64,000 nucleotides of DNA from Proteiniphilum saccharofermentans (GTDB lineage: Bacteria; Bacteroidota; Bacteroidia; Bacteroidales; Dysgonomonadaceae): contig NZ_LT605205.1 in the NCBI RefSeq assembly GCF_900095135.1, positions 3,906,001-3,970,000 of the forward strand, read 5' to 3'. Made by a program: the position numbers and the translations under genes. The notes under the pieces were generated by a model, which searched no databases, was not told where the DNA came from, and worked only from the letters and a program-made list of their open reading frames with translations. Below, piece after piece: positions 38,219-44,785 of the stretch (the first letter of the stretch is position 1; each line of letters begins with the position of its first letter).

Positions 38219-40597
38219 TTACCTGTTAAAAGTATAGCGCAATGTGGCACCGAAGCGGGTGGGATATCCACGCTGTACAAAGGTATTCATTTCATCGGTC
38301 GTCACATCATTTTGCTCGAACAGGAATGAGTTATATTTTGTATTGAAAAGATTCTCTACCCAACATTCCAGCCCAAAAGCTCCTTTCTCTACAGCAATAT
38401 TGGCATTGGTCATCCCATAAAAGGGTTGATATAGTTCTTTCGTGCCAGCATCATTTTGATTTGATTCTGTCCAGTAAATCTTACCAACTCCCTGGTATTG
38501 TATATTTCCAATCACCCGGTCGATAAATGAACCGTAAGGTAGATGGTGTATATAGCTGGCTCCCAGACTCAATGTATGCTGAGGCGCAAAAGGCACATGG
38601 TTTCCCGAATAGTCTATCTGATCATCCCCCTCTTCCCCAATCTCATACTTTACAAAACGGGCATCGGCAAATCCGTACTCGGCAAAGAGAGAGAGATTAT
38701 CTGTCGGTACATATTTCAAACTCAACTCAAATCCTTTACTGTCCGATTTCCCTGCATTGGCAATAGTACGTCCCGATGTACCTTGTTTGGCCAACTGGGT
38801 AATCTGCAAGTTATTGACATGGGTATAAAAAAGGGCATAGGTCAGTGAAAATCTCCTGTCCAGCATCTCATAACGGCCGCCCAACTCGTAGGTCCAACTG
38901 GTTTCGGGATCGTAGGAGAGTTGACTTTCTATGGGTGCCATGGGAGGTATTTCGGGAAGTTGAACGTTGCCAGGCACATACGGTTTAACGTTTCTAATCA
39001 ATGATTCCATAAGCGCACCCTGTAATACATCCGAGAAGACCTGTTCATTATATCCGCCTGTTTTATATCCTTTCGACGCAGAAAGATAAACTTGTGAAGT
39101 AGGAGACATCTGGTATTTCAGTGCAAACTTAGGCAGTATTTTCCAAAAATCTTTACGGAAAGAACCTTCCAATAAAGTATCTCCCTCCACAAATATGGGT
39201 GGAATAGGCATAGGAGTCTGAAACACCATATTAATATCTCCCCCGTCACTCTCTGTGAAGTAATCGAGACCGGTATGTTCGTAATCGAACCGGATACCGG
39301 CTGTAGCAGAGAATCCCTCCACACCAAAAAGATTATTGAAGGTGGACTGGTGAAACAAAGCTGCCCCGCGCGACGGCTTGGTATATACTCCGGGCAGGTC
39401 GATCCGGTCACCGGTATAAACCAGACGAAGAGGTGCTCCAAGGTTCTCCATAAGCATATCCAAAGGACGCTGCAATACCGTCATCATATCTTCTTTAAGC
39501 GCGACCGGCGTATCAATCTCCCGATTGTCATAAAAACCGAAAGCGCCTACTACCCAGCGGTAGTTTCCCTGCGTATCCGATTTCACGGTCACCTCCTGGC
39601 TTACGGAGCGCTGCTTCTGTTTCTGGTTGATAGAGAACACGGACTTAGGAGAGTAATCCTGGTCCATTTTCATATCATCTTTCAGATATTGAAAACCGGT
39701 AGTAGAATGGATCGTGAAACCGTTCCCGGTATAATCCAACGACAATCCGTTGGTAAACAGGTGGCGATCATACGACGACGGCTCATTAAAACTGGACGCA
39801 GTAGAATCCTCATGCATATAGGGAAAAGCACCACCGGACACATAGTCATAATTTCCAAAAAGCATCGCTTTGAATGAGGGAGAAGCCTGCCACTCCAGTT
39901 TGAACCTGCCTCCTGCATTTTCAGAAGCATCGACTTTCTTTCCGGTATAGCTGTTCATGAAATAACCATCGTCACGTTTGTAATAACCTGCAAGAGAAAG
40001 TCCAAAACGGTCGGAAAGTTTCCTGTAATCTGATCCTTTCGCAGAGAATTGTCCATAATTCCCTCCGCTCACCATTAGTTTAGTACCCTGGAAGGATAGA
40101 GGGGAAAGAGTATACATATTTACGATACCGCCAATGGCATTTCGTCCGTACAGGGTTCCCTGTGCCCCACGAAGCACCTCAATCCGTTGGATATCCTGAA
40201 ACTCGAAATCGAATGCTGAAGGGTTAAAGCTGGGGACATTGTCCACGTAAAGGCTTACAGTCTGTGACCCGAGACGGGCACCCACACCCCGGATATAGAT
40301 CGGTGTGGAGACTTTCGACCCGTAAGAAGGGATAAAAAAGTTAGGAATAAAAGCGCTCAATCGCGGCAACGACTCAATCCGGGCATCCTGCAACTGTTTT
40401 GGGGATACTACCGATATGGCTGTAGGCAGACTCTTCAATGCATTGGTCTCTTTCACGGAACTACTTATAACCACCTCATTCAGGTAATACACTTTTAACG
40501 TATCATCGGGGCTGGTCTCCTTAGCTGGTTCGTTATCTCCGGCAACCACACAAAAAGTGCTGCAGAAAACAAATATCACTAAAAACAAATTTCTCAT
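38219..40597 (-). CDS. TonB-dependent receptor (siderophore-type, no CarboxypepD domain)
   Basis: This 792-residue outer-membrane receptor has a signal peptide ending VVAG, then a short TonB-box region (YYLNEVVISSSVKE), plug (~45-160, with IYIRGVGARLGSQTVSLYVD and RGAQGTLYGRNAIGGIVNM) and a barrel ending FGATLRYTFNR. It lacks the N-terminal carboxypeptidase-like domain common in this phylum, and has no SusD partner. The plug and barrel motifs match ferric siderophore or haem receptors, but no iron genes adjoin it. It is divergent from the radical SAM/lipoprotein cluster across a 307-base gap. Confidence 0.88.
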   Translation of the reverse strand: MRNLFLVIFVFCSTFCVVAGDNEPAKETSPDDTLKVYYLNEVVISSSVKETNALKSLPTAISVVSPKQLQDARIESLPRLSAFIPNFFIPSYGSKVSTPIYIRGVGARLGSQTVSLYVDNVPSFNPSAFDFEFQDIQRIEVLRGAQGTLYGRNAIGGIVNMYTLSPLSFQGTKLMVSGGNYGQFSAKGSDYRKLSDRFGLSLAGYYKRDDGYFMNSYTGKKVDASENAGGRFKLEWQASPSFKAMLFGNYDYVSGGAFPYMHEDSTASSFNEPSSYDRHLFTNGLSLDYTGNGFTIHSTTGFQYLKDDMKMDQDYSPKSVFSINQKQKQRSVSQEVTVKSDTQGNYRWVVGAFGFYDNREIDTPVALKEDMMTVLQRPLDMLMENLGAPLRLVYTGDRIDLPGVYTKPSRGAALFHQSTFNNLFGVEGFSATAGIRFDYEHTGLDYFTESDGGDINMVFQTPMPIPPIFVEGDTLLEGSFRKDFWKILPKFALKYQMSPTSQVYLSASKGYKTGGYNEQVFSDVLQGALMESLIRNVKPYVPGNVQLPEIPPMAPIESQLSYDPETSWTYELGGRYEMLDRRFSLTYALFYTHVNNLQITQLAKQGTSGRTIANAGKSDSKGFELSLKYVPTDNLSLFAEYGFADARFVKYEIGEEGDDQIDYSGNHVPFAPQHTLSLGASYIHHLPYGSFIDRVIGNIQYQGVGKIYWTESNQNDAGTKELYQPFYGMTNANIAVEKGAFGLECWVENLFNTKYNSFLFEQNDVTTDEMNTFVQRGYPTRFGATLRYTFNR

Positions 40598-40904: not shown

Positions 40905-41417
40905 ATGAAGAAATTTGTCTTAAGAACCTATGGGAAAATTATCGCTTGGATCTTGACTGCATTAGGGCTATACACCTCCTGCGATATAATAGAGCCTCGT
41001 GTGGAGTACGGTAGTCCCTCCGCAGATTTCGTAGTCAAGGGAAATGTCAGTGATATTCAGAACCTGCAACCTATTGAGGATATGGCAGTCATCCGCAAAT
41101 CCCGGACAGCACCTCACTGGAATGACACCGTAAGAACCGATGCCAATGGAAATTACGAACTGGAATTCACGGAAGTTGCTTTCGGCCCGGAAGATATATG
41201 GGTTTATACCTCGGATATCGACAAAGGAGAATACCAGTCCGATACTATACGGATAAATGCATCTGAGCTGAGACAAATTGGCAAAAGAAGAAAAAACTGG
41301 TATAACGGTAAATTCGAAGGAAAAGCTGATTTTAAACTTAAAAAAGAATCTGGCCCGCATGTTATGTACGGCACACTTCCTGCCGAATACAAAGAGATGA
41401 AAAAAGACGTAGAGTAA
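40905..41417 (+). CDS. Radical SAM-associated putative lipoprotein (TIGR04134-like)
   Basis: This 170-residue protein has a signal (MKKFVLRTYGKIIAWILTA) and a lipobox-like LYTSC at about residue 26. The body is a small beta-sandwich resembling a carboxypeptidase-regulatory domain (FVVKGNVSDIQN to IWVYTSDIDKGEY), followed by a conserved-looking aromatic tail (KNWYNGKFEGKADFKLKK). It lies 18 bases before a radical SAM/SPASM enzyme; this pair corresponds to a known, functionally undefined Bacteroidetes pairing. The lipoprotein is thus a candidate substrate for peptide modification before export. That is inference; no cleavage motif is visible. Confidence 0.8.
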   Translation: MKKFVLRTYGKIIAWILTALGLYTSCDIIEPRVEYGSPSADFVVKGNVSDIQNLQPIEDMAVIRKSRTAPHWNDTVRTDANGNYELEFTEVAFGPEDIWVYTSDIDKGEYQSDTIRINASELRQIGKRRKNWYNGKFEGKADFKLKKESGPHVMYGTLPAEYKEMKKDVE

Positions 41418-41435
41418 AGAATCAAATCTGATTGT

Positions 41436-42563
41436 ATGGATACTAAAAAGAAGCTCATTCTTTCTCTTTACCGGCAACATAAGGCTACACAGAGCAAACT
41501 GCACAAACTAACCTATCTTTTCTGGGAGTGCACCTTACGGTGTAACTTCAACTGCATGCATTGCGGAAGCGATTGTACGAGACAGGCGGCTGTTCCCGAT
41601 ATGCCAAAAGAGGATTTTCTGAGAGTACTTGCGGATATCCGCCCACATGTGAACCCACACAAGACCATGATTGTACTCACCGGCGGAGAACCGTTGGTAC
41701 GAAAGGACCTGGCGGAGTGTGGCCAGGCAATGTACGACATGGGCTATCCATGGGGATTCGTAACCAACGGCTGGGGACTGGAGGAAAAAAGATTACAATC
41801 TCTTCTCAATGCAGGATTACGCTCTGTGACAGTGAGTCTGGATGGTTACACAGAAGAATCCCATGACTGGTTCAGAGGAAAACAAGGCTCCTGGTTACGG
41901 GCTATCAATGCCATTTCCAGAGTCGTATCGACACCCGATCTGGTGTATGATGTAGTCACTTGTGTCAATAAAAAAAATATTGCGGATTTGCCGAAACTAC
42001 GTGATTTACTCATTTCTTTAGGCGTTACACACTGGCGGCTCTTCACCGTCTTCCCGAAAGGAAGGGCTAAGGACAACCCGCTTTTAAAACTCTCCACAGT
42101 GGAATTCCGGCAGATGATGGATTTCATTCGTGATACCCGACGGGAAGGGAAAATCAATGCCTCTTACGGTTGCGAAGGATATCTGGAGGACTATGAAATG
42201 GAGGTACGCGACACCCCTTTCCATTGTCAGGCAGGGATCAATATTGCGTCAGTGCTTGCCAACGGCGATATCAGCGCCTGTCCGAGCCTTAGGGGTGATT
42301 ACGTGCAAGGCAATATCTATCAGGATGATTTCTGGACGGTCTGGAACAGCCGTTACCAGATTATGCGGGACCGTTCATGGACAAAAACCGGGAAATGTGC
42401 ATCCTGTAAGTCTTATAAATATTGTCAAGGGAATGGTCTCCACCTACGTGACGAGAAGACGGGCGAACTATTGCATTGCCATCTCGAAATGATGGGAAAA
42501 GAGACACAAGCCGAACCAAAATTCGAAAATGTATTAACTGCAGCATTCCGCTTTTTAACGTAA
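41436..42563 (+). CDS. Radical SAM/SPASM protein (TIGR04133-like, lipoprotein-associated)
   Basis: This 375-residue cytoplasmic iron-sulfur enzyme binds the SAM cluster through CNFNCMHC in the N-terminal part (ECTLRCNFNCMHCGSDC), with the SAM-binding GGEPLVRKD. The C-terminal SPASM region has CQAGINIASVLANGDISAC and CASCKSYKYC, enough Cys for auxiliary clusters. SPASM enzymes often modify peptides (thioether or C-C crosslinks) in ribosomal peptide pathways. Here the presumed partner is the lipoprotein just upstream. An outer-membrane-like protein follows after 46 bases. The product is unknown. Confidence 0.88.
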   Translation: MDTKKKLILSLYRQHKATQSKLHKLTYLFWECTLRCNFNCMHCGSDCTRQAAVPDMPKEDFLRVLADIRPHVNPHKTMIVLTGGEPLVRKDLAECGQAMYDMGYPWGFVTNGWGLEEKRLQSLLNAGLRSVTVSLDGYTEESHDWFRGKQGSWLRAINAISRVVSTPDLVYDVVTCVNKKNIADLPKLRDLLISLGVTHWRLFTVFPKGRAKDNPLLKLSTVEFRQMMDFIRDTRREGKINASYGCEGYLEDYEMEVRDTPFHCQAGINIASVLANGDISACPSLRGDYVQGNIYQDDFWTVWNSRYQIMRDRSWTKTGKCASCKSYKYCQGNGLHLRDEKTGELLHCHLEMMGKETQAEPKFENVLTAAFRFLT

Positions 42564-42609
42564 TAGCAGTTCTTTAAAATATTATTAGTCCTTATAGGCA
42601 ACTGTGACC

Positions 42610-43359
42610 ATGAAGATTAAACTCATTCTCTTTTTATTTATTTGCATGGGGACACTCTCCTATGCCCAGCAGACACAAAATTCCCCATCCAATAACCGGG
42701 AGAAAAAATGGCTCATTGATGTAACGGCAGGAACAAATATCGACCTGATCCACTCCAGTTCCAATCCTGAATCCAAACTACTTGGATCCAGGCCGGACGT
42801 AGTACCGGTATTCGGATCCCGGGTGACCTGGCTTTTTTCGAACCAGACAGGTGTGTACGCGAAACTACGTTTCAATCTATACAAAAGTAAAAGATCTGAA
42901 TACAATCAGCAGGGTATTATAGAAGAAGTACTGGAAACTATCTTCCTCGACCATATCTTTTTTCCCGTTTCAAGATTGTATCCGTCTTTGGATGCGGGGA
43001 TTATCTATCGTTTTGAACAAGACAGATGGAAAATCCATCCGGGAATAGGATTTGGAGTCATGAGTTATTTACCTGATAGTGAATCATCAAGAACCCGGAA
43101 AGAAAACAATTCTGAATTGAGTGTATCCTATAAGCAACACGCCCTACCTATCTTTCTGAATATGGGCCTATCCACTCGTTATTCAATTTCCCGAATAAGT
43201 TCTCTGATATTGGATATAAACTTTCAACAGCCCCTCCAAAAATCCTATGCAGAATTAATTACCCATACAGACGGAGTGGAGACCGACAGAAAATCATACC
43301 GGACATCCACCGCAGGAAGAAACCTAAATATTAGTATCGGCTACGGAATAACATTCTGA
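42610..43359 (+). CDS. Predicted outer-membrane beta-barrel protein of the radical SAM cluster
   Basis: I start at ATG 42610 (MKIKLILFLFICMGTLSYAQ), a clean Sec signal; a GTG two codons earlier is also possible. The ~230-residue mature part alternates short amphipathic strands (VYAKLRFNLYKSKR, LDAGIIYRFEQDRW, GIGFGVMSYLPD) and ends LNISIGYGITF with a terminal Phe, as in small outer-membrane barrels. I do not recognise a named family. Placement right after the radical SAM gene suggests a shared job at the cell surface. Confidence 0.65.
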   Translation: MKIKLILFLFICMGTLSYAQQTQNSPSNNREKKWLIDVTAGTNIDLIHSSSNPESKLLGSRPDVVPVFGSRVTWLFSNQTGVYAKLRFNLYKSKRSEYNQQGIIEEVLETIFLDHIFFPVSRLYPSLDAGIIYRFEQDRWKIHPGIGFGVMSYLPDSESSRTRKENNSELSVSYKQHALPIFLNMGLSTRYSISRISSLILDINFQQPLQKSYAELITHTDGVETDRKSYRTSTAGRNLNISIGYGITF

Positions 43360-43434: not shown

Positions 43435-43980
43435 ATGAAACGAGCATTATTAATTGTTGACGTTCAGAACGATTTCTGTCCTGGAGGTACCTTGGCAGTA
43501 AAAGATGGTGATAAAGTGGTTCCGGTGATCAACGGAATTATGGACAAGTTCGATCTGGTGATCTCGTCGCAGGACTGGCATCCGGAGGAAACGGTGCATT
43601 TCAGGAAATGGCCGGTACATTGTGTCGCCGGAACACAAGGTGCAGAATTCCATCCCGGCCTGGAGGCTGATAAAATAGATTTGGAACTGTTAAAAGGCAC
43701 GGATAACAAAGATGATGGCTATTCCGCTTTTGAAGCAACCAATGCATCGCTTACCGATTTCCTCCAGGAAAACAACATTCAACACCTTTACGTATGCGGT
43801 CTCGCCACTGATTATTGTGTCAAGGCCTCTGCCATTGATGCGGTAACGCAGGGTTTTCATACCTATGTGATCACTGATGCCATAGCGGCAGTCAACGTAC
43901 AACCCGGTGACGATGAAAAATCCTTACAGGAAATGTACCAGAAAGGTTGCGTACTGATGGAATCGACAGAAATTCAATGA
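43435..43980 (+). CDS. pncA: Nicotinamidase
   Basis: This 181-residue enzyme hydrolyses nicotinamide to nicotinate for NAD salvage. The isochorismatase-like fold shows the catalytic Asp in LLIVDVQNDFCPGG, the metal ligands in SSQDWHPEETVHF, Lys/His around WPVHCVAGTQGAEF, and the nucleophilic Cys in GLATDYCVKASAID. The length is usual. It stands alone, with a small gap to the HipA-like kinase gene downstream, whose -7 element begins nine bases past the pncA stop. Confidence 0.96.
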   Translation: MKRALLIVDVQNDFCPGGTLAVKDGDKVVPVINGIMDKFDLVISSQDWHPEETVHFRKWPVHCVAGTQGAEFHPGLEADKIDLELLKGTDNKDDGYSAFEATNASLTDFLQENNIQHLYVCGLATDYCVKASAIDAVTQGFHTYVITDAIAAVNVQPGDDEKSLQEMYQKGCVLMESTEIQ

Positions 43981-43988
43981 GATTATCG

Positions 43989-43996
43989 TATCTTTG
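43989..43996 (+). promoter_or_regulatory. -7 element almost touching the HipA-like gene start
   Basis: TATCTTTG (TAnnTTTG) ends six bases before ATG 44003, so the transcript could begin at or within two or three bases of the start codon (leaderless). No -33 TTTG is visible, so this may be coincidence. Confidence 0.4.
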
Positions 43997-44002
43997 CTCC
44001 CG

Positions 44003-44785
44003 ATGGGAAAAGATATATCATTACGCACCGTAAAAGTTGTCCGTTACATCCTGCCTTTACGTGAAGGCGGATCACTTCCGGCATTAGCAGAAGCCGACGA
44101 CGGATTCAAATATGTACTGAAATTCCGTGGCGCGGGGCATGGCACTAAAATGCTGGTCTCGGAATTGCTGGGCGGAAAAATTGCCTCTGTCTTGGGCTTG
44201 CAAATTCCCGAATTGGTTTTTGCCACACTCGATGATGATTTCGGACGAAGTGAAGGCGATGAGGAAATACAGGATTTGCTGAAAGGAAGTGAAGGACTCA
44301 ACCTGGGGTTACATTATCTCTCGGGAGCCATTGCCTACGACCCAACCGTGAAAATCGACCCTTTCCTGGCATCAAAGATTGTCTGGCTCGATGCTTTTAT
44401 AACCAATATCGACCGCACATTTAACAATACGAACCTGCTGTGGTGGCATCGCGAGTTATGGGTGATCGACAACGGCGCATCGTTTTACTTCCATCACTCA
44501 TGGAACGACTTCGAGAGGCATGCCCTCAACCCGTTCCCCCATATCAAGGATCATGTATTGCTATCCCAGGCATCAATGCTCGACGAAGCAGACCAATTTG
44601 CACATGAGGTTCTTTCAGACGACTTACTGGAAGAAATCACGAAACTTATTCCTGGCGAGTGGCTGGTATGGAACCACACGCAAGAGACACCCGAAGAGAT
44701 CAGAGGAGTTTATCTGAATCTTTTGAAAACACGATTACACCATTCTCAAAACTTTCTAAACACTGCCAAAGATGCAAGGGGATAA
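44003..44785 (+). CDS. HipA-family kinase-like protein
   Basis: This ~260-residue protein starts at ATG 44003 (MGKDISLRTVKVVRYI). It matches the short HipA-like family found with DUF3037: a nucleotide-binding region with YVLKFRGAGHGTKMLVSELL, and a catalytic core with LASKIVWLDAFITNIDRTFN (Asp, Asn and Asp in the order of the HipA active site) and LWVIDNGASFYFHH (metal Asp). It is shorter than HipA toxin kinases, lacks the usual N-terminal subdomain, and there is no HipB-type repressor. It overlaps the DUF3037 gene by 14 bases. Kinase activity and target are inferred; unlike classic HipAB it may not be a toxin. Confidence 0.8.
   Translation: MGKDISLRTVKVVRYILPLREGGSLPALAEADDGFKYVLKFRGAGHGTKMLVSELLGGKIASVLGLQIPELVFATLDDDFGRSEGDEEIQDLLKGSEGLNLGLHYLSGAIAYDPTVKIDPFLASKIVWLDAFITNIDRTFNNTNLLWWHRELWVIDNGASFYFHHSWNDFERHALNPFPHIKDHVLLSQASMLDEADQFAHEVLSDDLLEEITKLIPGEWLVWNHTQETPEEIRGVYLNLLKTRLHHSQNFLNTAKDARG

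Follow-up and report, generated by a model that had tools for sequence, protein, structure and literature searches.

We analysed a two-gene locus in a 64,000-nucleotide stretch of the Proteiniphilum saccharofermentans genome (contig NZ_LT605205.1, positions 3,906,001 to 3,970,000; the whole stretch is called the window). A lipoprotein gene and the gene of a radical S-adenosylmethionine (SAM) enzyme with a SPASM domain lie side by side on the plus strand, and the two open reading frames (ORFs) are separated by a gap of 18 nt (Table 1). They are followed on the same strand by a third ORF and then by a nicotinamidase gene. The lipoprotein belongs to the NCBIfam family TIGR04134 (93.7 bits, E = 1.1e-26, curated cut-off 39.8), and the enzyme belongs to TIGR04133 (553.7 bits, E = 1.4e-166, curated cut-off 425) and contains the Pfam domains Radical_SAM and SPASM, both above cut-off. 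TIGR04133 and TIGR04134 (rSAM_w_lipo and lipo_with_rSAM) are "hypoth_equivalog" models named without a function, consistent with an earlier note on this DNA, made from the sequence alone, which had called the pairing recognised and uncharacterised. The source genome (4.41 Mb) contains a single TIGR04133 match, and the closest relative found for the enzyme, also from Proteiniphilum, is 90% identical. A scan for promoters and terminators stayed near the expectation from shuffled sequence (6 found against a mean of 6.4, and 4 against a mean of 2.9, respectively) and was uninformative.

The predicted model of the lipoprotein has a mean predicted local distance difference test score (pLDDT) of 80.7. 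The sequence EYGSP is located in the linker between the signal helix and the first strand, which starts at residue 39. The modelled beta-sandwich reaches approximately residue 145, and the following tail, with a mean pLDDT near 50, contains MYGTLP, a site not kept in some close homologues such as that of locus L018. Foldseek matches of the lipoprotein are weak, with SleC first (9.4e-5) and the transthyretin-like domain of carboxypeptidase D next (5aq0, 5.3e-4). Among 25 aligned partner lipoproteins, residues G21, C26, Y35, P38, G82, W132, and G135 are invariant, and G36 is kept in at least 90%. The model of the enzyme has a mean pLDDT of 89.0 and shows a helix at residues 3-22 ahead of the core. 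Its closest solved folds are SuiB, BlsE, SkfB, and PqqE (Foldseek; E = 1.4e-13 for SuiB).

Table 1 Features of the locus, in positions of the window.
Feature	Positions	Strand	Remarks
Divergent TonB-dependent receptor	38219..40597	-	Neighbour, kept in close relatives only
Lipoprotein, TIGR04134	40905..41417	+	170 aa; signal helix, Cys26, linker, transthyretin-like beta-sandwich, C-terminal tail
Lipobox-like Cys26	40980..40982	+	Invariant in the 25-partner alignment
EYGSP, residues 34-38	41004..41018	+	Proposed main modification site; flexible or low-confidence in the model
KNWYNGKFEG, residues 130-139	41292..41321	+	Site proposed by the earlier note; largely a strand of the fold
MYGTLP, residues 154-159	41364..41381	+	Candidate additional site, a looser fit to the motif; tail of low model confidence
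Radical SAM/SPASM enzyme, TIGR04133	41436..42563	+	375 aa
CxxxCxxC SAM-cluster motif (C36, C40, C43), CNFNCMHC	41541..41564	+	
Residues 248-258 with G248, E254, R258	42177..42209	+	Common to PlpX/GDL-type enzymes; each in at most 2 of 6 other SPASM enzymes
SPASM region, conserved Cys 264, 282, 321, 324, 330, 348	42225..42479	+	
Signal-bearing third ORF	42610..43359	+	Neighbour, not a core part

A Tyr-Gly motif in the partners of the enzyme

For comparison we used a sample of 155 enzyme ORFs in 153 loci, comprising the window's own locus (L001), 42 of the 44 loci of a first search, and 110 further loci (one place, G630, was left out). L044 and L045, whose enzymes are 30% and 25% identical, were excluded from it. 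The enzyme sample contains 149, 132, and 88 sequences at <97, <90, and <70% identity, respectively. Of the 393 Bacteroidales genomes sampled, 87 contain a TIGR04133 match above cut-off, and relatives of the enzyme occur in records named Bacteroides, Alistipes, and Prevotella.

The motif was defined as YG-x(1-3)-P, and the upstream ORFs counted were those on the strand of the enzyme gene and no more than 700 nt ahead of it. The upstream region is usable for 150 of the 155 enzyme copies, the other 5 being too near a contig end. A TIGR04134-like upstream ORF is found with the motif for 118 of these copies and with another Tyr-Gly for 6; before inspection, 17 more had a motif-bearing upstream ORF outside the TIGR04134-type profile, and 9 had none. 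Inspection struck two of the 17 as spurious (L141 and L173); four others look like remote TIGR04134 members (L162, L164, L168, and L169, of which L162 alone was tested, E = 1.4e-4), and L123 has a TIGR04134-type profile match nearby. After inspection, 139 of the 150 copies have an upstream ORF with Tyr-Gly, in 133 cases as YG-x(1-3)-P. For comparison, of 4262 background ORFs with lengths of 70-320 aa, 124 contain the motif.

The motif is tied to the position directly upstream of the enzyme gene. On the same strand it is found at 132 of 148 adjacent positions, then at 23 of 74 and 14 of 97 in the next two distance bins, 2 of 84 at 1.2-2 kb, and 1 of 53 at 2-3 kb (3 of 137 positions over 1.2-3 kb). 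Second lipoproteins are counted in the middle bins; two or three partner ORFs are present for 43 of the 143 enzymes that have a partner. On the opposite strand, the adjacent position carries the motif in 7 of 113 cases. In loci L001-L043, Tyr-Gly occurs in 53 of 54 lipoprotein-like ORFs. In 500 shuffles the number was 23.1 on average and never above 33; the test includes Tyr-Gly within signal peptides, such as KTYGK. The remaining ORF, in L029, was called too short, and its frame has AYGTP upstream. Among these loci no lipoprotein was found for L041, nor for L038, where the contig ends and only a tail is visible.

Ten upstream partners lie outside the TIGR04134-type profile (L101, L104, L112, L113, L119, L124, L125, L129, L137, and L142), and the TIGR04134 family is thus narrower than the actual set of partners. 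All ten have a Cys-containing, signal-like start and at least one motif, for example VYGSPE, VYGPPE, LYGVP, or KYGIPP. They are not ten independent cases, as the first eight look, by eye, like one or two coiled-coil-like groups. The motif is nevertheless kept on unrelated partners, and this is the strongest argument that the enzyme needs the motif and not the fold.

Over 173 distinct motif windows, the residue before Tyr-Gly varies (E in 53, C in 29, M in 27, and K in 24), as expected if the tyrosine and glycine are what matters, and proline stands at +3 in 150. The nearest preceding cysteine is at a median distance of 8 residues. In Bacteroidota, lipoproteins can have envelope sorting signals near the lipobox, and a motif often found there could be only a docking or export-related element, while the enzyme modifies another residue or another target. 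We consider this quite improbable, since the motif is also found within C-terminal tails and as a threefold repeat, and the unrelated partners have, by inspection, no other residue in common. In addition, among TIGR04134-like ORFs from enzyme-free stretches of about 2-3 kb, only 3 of 22 contain YG-x(1-3)-P. One of these three is from genome G172, which has motif-bearing lipoproteins on one contig and its TIGR04133 enzyme on a different one.

Several further observations concern the motif and the enzyme family. In L141, the ORF directly downstream of the enzyme encodes a partner-like protein in which a stretch around ECxYGPPPG is repeated three times almost unchanged, a pattern that would fit several modified sites in one precursor. 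A cysteine directly precedes Tyr-Gly (CYGTP, CYGMP) in partners of L162, L164, L168, L169, L171, L172, and L190. A small Lachnospiraceae peptide containing TVTPYGVIVAG is encoded upstream of the distant enzyme relative in L044. Loci L174-L185 contain TIGR04133-like enzymes under the family cut-off (about 333-372 bits); three representatives form a deep, well-supported branch of the tree, and all of these loci except L183, at a contig end, keep a partner ORF with the motif. L144 and L154 each contain a tandem pair of TIGR04133-type enzymes.

Candidate reaction and its alternatives

Substrates with an xYG motif are known from the PlpXY spliceases. According to PMC10533398, PlpXY excises tyramine at xYG, naturally at MYG and LYG, and YGLP is part of the tags derived from PlpA2; PlpXY did not accept the tag at most of the places tried in FtsZ, which indicates that context matters. 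PMC10373908 states that a single precursor can undergo several splicing events, and PlpX is listed as a member of IPR026482 in PMC11002830. Of the features of a splicease, the window contains a radical SAM enzyme with a SPASM domain and a substrate with xYG (EYGSP and MYGTLP). Single PlpX/GDL-type sequences give better matches to the TIGR04133 profile (8e-32 to 3e-36) than the six other SPASM enzymes compared (5e-26 to 3e-30). Eleven positions are common to TIGR04133 and the PlpX/GDL set (E31, G44, S45, T175, W200, A211, G248, E254, R258, C264, and C282), each of which occurs in at most two of the six other SPASM enzymes. On a plasmid of Nostoc sp. C057, a TIGR04103 enzyme (853.1 bits) adjoins a Nif11 precursor with the C-terminus IALYGLPPELF. 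This locus (plasmid p057_G, L189:5660-7481) is a probable spliceotide cluster, and a 71-aa ORF behind it could be PlpY-like.

We infer, as the best reading of the pair and in line with the earlier note, that the enzyme modifies the lipoprotein. The computation shows that the pair and the motif exist, where the motif lies, and that it recurs in partners unrelated to each other. The TIGR04133 enzyme very probably acts at this x-Tyr-Gly-x-Pro motif. In the mechanism we propose, TIGR04133 would be a splicease-like radical SAM/SPASM enzyme acting on the lipoprotein in the cytoplasm, before export. Tyramine would be spliced out at x-Tyr-Gly-x-Pro motifs, leaving alpha-keto-beta-amino residues, and the modified lipoprotein would then be exported and lipidated. 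The resulting ketoamide, formed from Glu34, would be carried on a flexible tether close to the membrane anchor, and a second one, formed from Met154, may lie in the C-terminal tail. Tyramine excision seems the better bet for the reaction, on the likeness to known splicease substrates. For the reading as a whole, a splicease-like TIGR04133 acting on envelope lipoproteins, we estimate a probability of roughly 60%.

A number of observations weigh against this reading. The best single match of the TIGR04133 profile is an Agathobacter enzyme (2.3e-41), and no Tyr-Gly partner was identified for this enzyme or for that of L188. By NCBIfam score, the window enzyme is closer to TIGR04053 and heme b synthase (both 136.8 bits) and to NirJ2 (122 bits) than to TIGR04103 (120.1 bits). 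The tree of the enzymes splits into three groups, and their branching order changes with the root. No PlpY-like protein was recognised, as within 2.5 kb, the span covered, no small protein but the lipoprotein recurs among ORFs of at least 60 codons. In 6 of the 150 usable copies, the TIGR04134-like upstream ORF has another Tyr-Gly and lacks YG-x(1-3)-P. The motif is not strictly invariant, as L022 and L023 have MYATP at the conserved site. In L118, L128, L171, L172, and L141 the motif is in a downstream gene, which is weaker evidence, found post hoc in a wider span. No candidate partner was found for 6 of the 150 copies (L041, L117, L122, L138, L148, and L173); a fragment of a similar domain, perhaps a degraded partner, lies upstream in L117. 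In the partners with CYG, the residue before Tyr-Gly may be the very cysteine that is lipidated, and a splicing model has to allow for this.

The same motif could also be the site of another radical chemistry, for example a C-C or ether cross-link from the tyrosine ring to the +2 residue or to a Phe or Tyr at +7. Cyclophane-type SPASM maturases make such tyrosine-ring cross-links, and the nearest solved fold of the enzyme model, SuiB, is the streptide cross-linking enzyme. Phe or Tyr is found at +7 in 97 of the 173 motif windows, and the sequence kinship of the enzyme to PlpX is not exclusive. However, many short partners do not have such an aromatic residue, the +2 residue is variable and at times proline, and the xYG context fits the known splicease substrates and the Nostoc precursor. 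Other radical chemistry at the motif is, in our judgement, rather unlikely.

What is new is the probable target motif of the functionless TIGR04133/TIGR04134 pair, which is well supported. Our literature search found no paper with TIGR04133, TIGR04134, or rSAM-associated-lipoprotein phrases. Scott et al. 2022 is cited in PMC10533398 for 27 characterised and 939 predicted spliceases, and these may include the family. With the target motif named, a single experiment by mass spectrometry can address the orphan pair. Should the product be a ketoamide, common gut and anaerobic-digester bacteria would have a natural reactive group fixed in their envelope, which would matter for the inhibition of proteases, for contact with the host, and for chemical labelling. 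Inhibition of proteases by spliceotides is reported in PMC10373908 and PMC11117315, both citing Scott et al. 2022; this suggests a protease-trapping role and does not show it. A more speculative idea, and we think a doubtful one, is that the ketoamide, as an electrophile, would act at the envelope as a reversible trap for serine or cysteine proteases. A broader reading can be offered tentatively, at somewhat less than even odds: a sizeable part of the Bacteroidales species would splice anchored envelope lipoproteins, and not secreted peptides, on several separately recruited scaffolds, sometimes at or near the lipidated cysteine, to give a tethered ketoamide and perhaps a protease trap.

Neighbouring genes

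The earlier note had proposed a possible three-gene surface system, in which the third gene and a divergent TonB receptor accompany the pair and the aromatic tail KNWYNGKFEG of the lipoprotein is a plausible modification site. This segment is present in the lipoprotein but is not a tail, as it is modelled on strand 133-140 of the folded domain. A search for invariant residues, which the note had advised, does find W132 and G135 within the segment, in all 25 aligned partners, but the element shared by the partners is x-Tyr-Gly-x-Pro, located elsewhere. W132 and G135 are better explained as conserved residues of the fold, and the segment is missing from short partners and from those on unrelated scaffolds. 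KNWYNGKFEG was therefore rejected as the target of the enzyme.

The third ORF is present and looks signal-bearing. Its start was taken as ATG at 42610, and the program's ORF list has GTG at 42604. It has no Pfam match, and its description as barrel-like is unproven, as the best match to an outer-membrane barrel family is sub-threshold (E = 0.014, 14.7 bits against a cut-off of 125). Where the third gene is present, it directly follows the enzyme gene, but homologues were found in at least 6 of the 153 loci (L001 and L005-L009; some loci end a short distance downstream) and in none of the four closest relatives, L002, L003, L018, and L004. In L002, L003, and L004 a different ORF follows the enzyme, and in L018 the nicotinamidase does. 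The co-occurrence that the earlier note had proposed as a check thus fails, and the third gene was rejected as a core part.

The TonB receptor is indeed divergent to the lipoprotein gene, as the earlier note described. Among L001-L045, matches to it (E <= 1e-30) were found, besides the window, only in the close relatives L002, L003, L004, L011, and L018, and it was likewise rejected as a part of the system. With the evidence on both genes and on KNWYNGKFEG taken together, we regard the three-gene proposal as very improbable.

Within 2.5 kb of the enzyme gene the lipoprotein cluster alone recurs, and it is present in 70 of the 88 non-redundant loci. For the other large clusters, a single representative of each was considered, and by this measure they overlap the enzyme gene; the next non-overlapping cluster is found in 6 of the 88 loci. 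No exporter, leader protease, or PlpY recurs within this span, and the locus thus does not have the recurrent exporter or leader protease of a classical secreted cluster for ribosomally synthesised and post-translationally modified peptides. Further downstream in the window, at 43435-44785, the nicotinamidase gene is followed by a HipA_2-type kinase-like gene, and the same order is seen in L002, L003, and L011.

Comparison with known systems

The annotated TIGR04133/TIGR04134 loci of Parabacteroides and of a Treponema plasmid have the same gene order as the pair in the window. The latter, on a Treponema saccharophilum plasmid (enzyme 451.4 bits), is an annotated pair outside Bacteroidota, in a spirochaete. 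On this plasmid (pTS1, L190:2791-5083), the pair adjoins a gene of an Mpi-family DNA invertase.

The overall fold of the TIGR04133 enzyme is like that of the solved SPASM-type maturases SuiB, SkfB, and PqqE, with 17-19% identity over aligned columns. The substrates and reactions of these three differ from those proposed here. For the enzyme, neither the nine matches by sequence nor the 50 listed matches by fold include a structure named as a splicease.

The related GDL system (GDL motif peptide-associated maturase, TIGR03913, with DUF1843 peptides) has several peptides with xYG near the start. The window enzyme is not a member of TIGR03913 (114.9 bits against a cut-off of 591.75). The peptides of that system are small and soluble-looking, without a lipobox, and have YA or YM in some copies. 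DUF1843 or DUF1843-like peptides lie beside GDL-type or TIGR04103-like enzymes in Azospirillum, Aureibacter, L186, and L187; some of them have xYG close to the N-terminus, and others have YA or YM; loci with DUF1843-type peptides are L194:537-2931, L192:2180-4383, L186, and L187. The GDL/DUF1843 system may also be splicease-like.

The closest comparison is with PlpXY, the nif11-class radical SAM maturase 3 family (TIGR04103, IPR026482), which shares with TIGR04133 the SPASM domain and a substrate with xYG, often with proline at +3. The partners of PlpXY are Nif11 or NHLP leader peptides, whereas those of TIGR04133 are lipoproteins. The TIGR04133 enzyme has an extra N-terminal helix at residues 3-22, and the N-terminus of the Nostoc TIGR04103 enzyme is shorter; as a guess, this helix might stand in for PlpY. 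With 120.1 bits against a TIGR04103 cut-off of 725, the window enzyme is not a member of the PlpX family, but it probably works like one.

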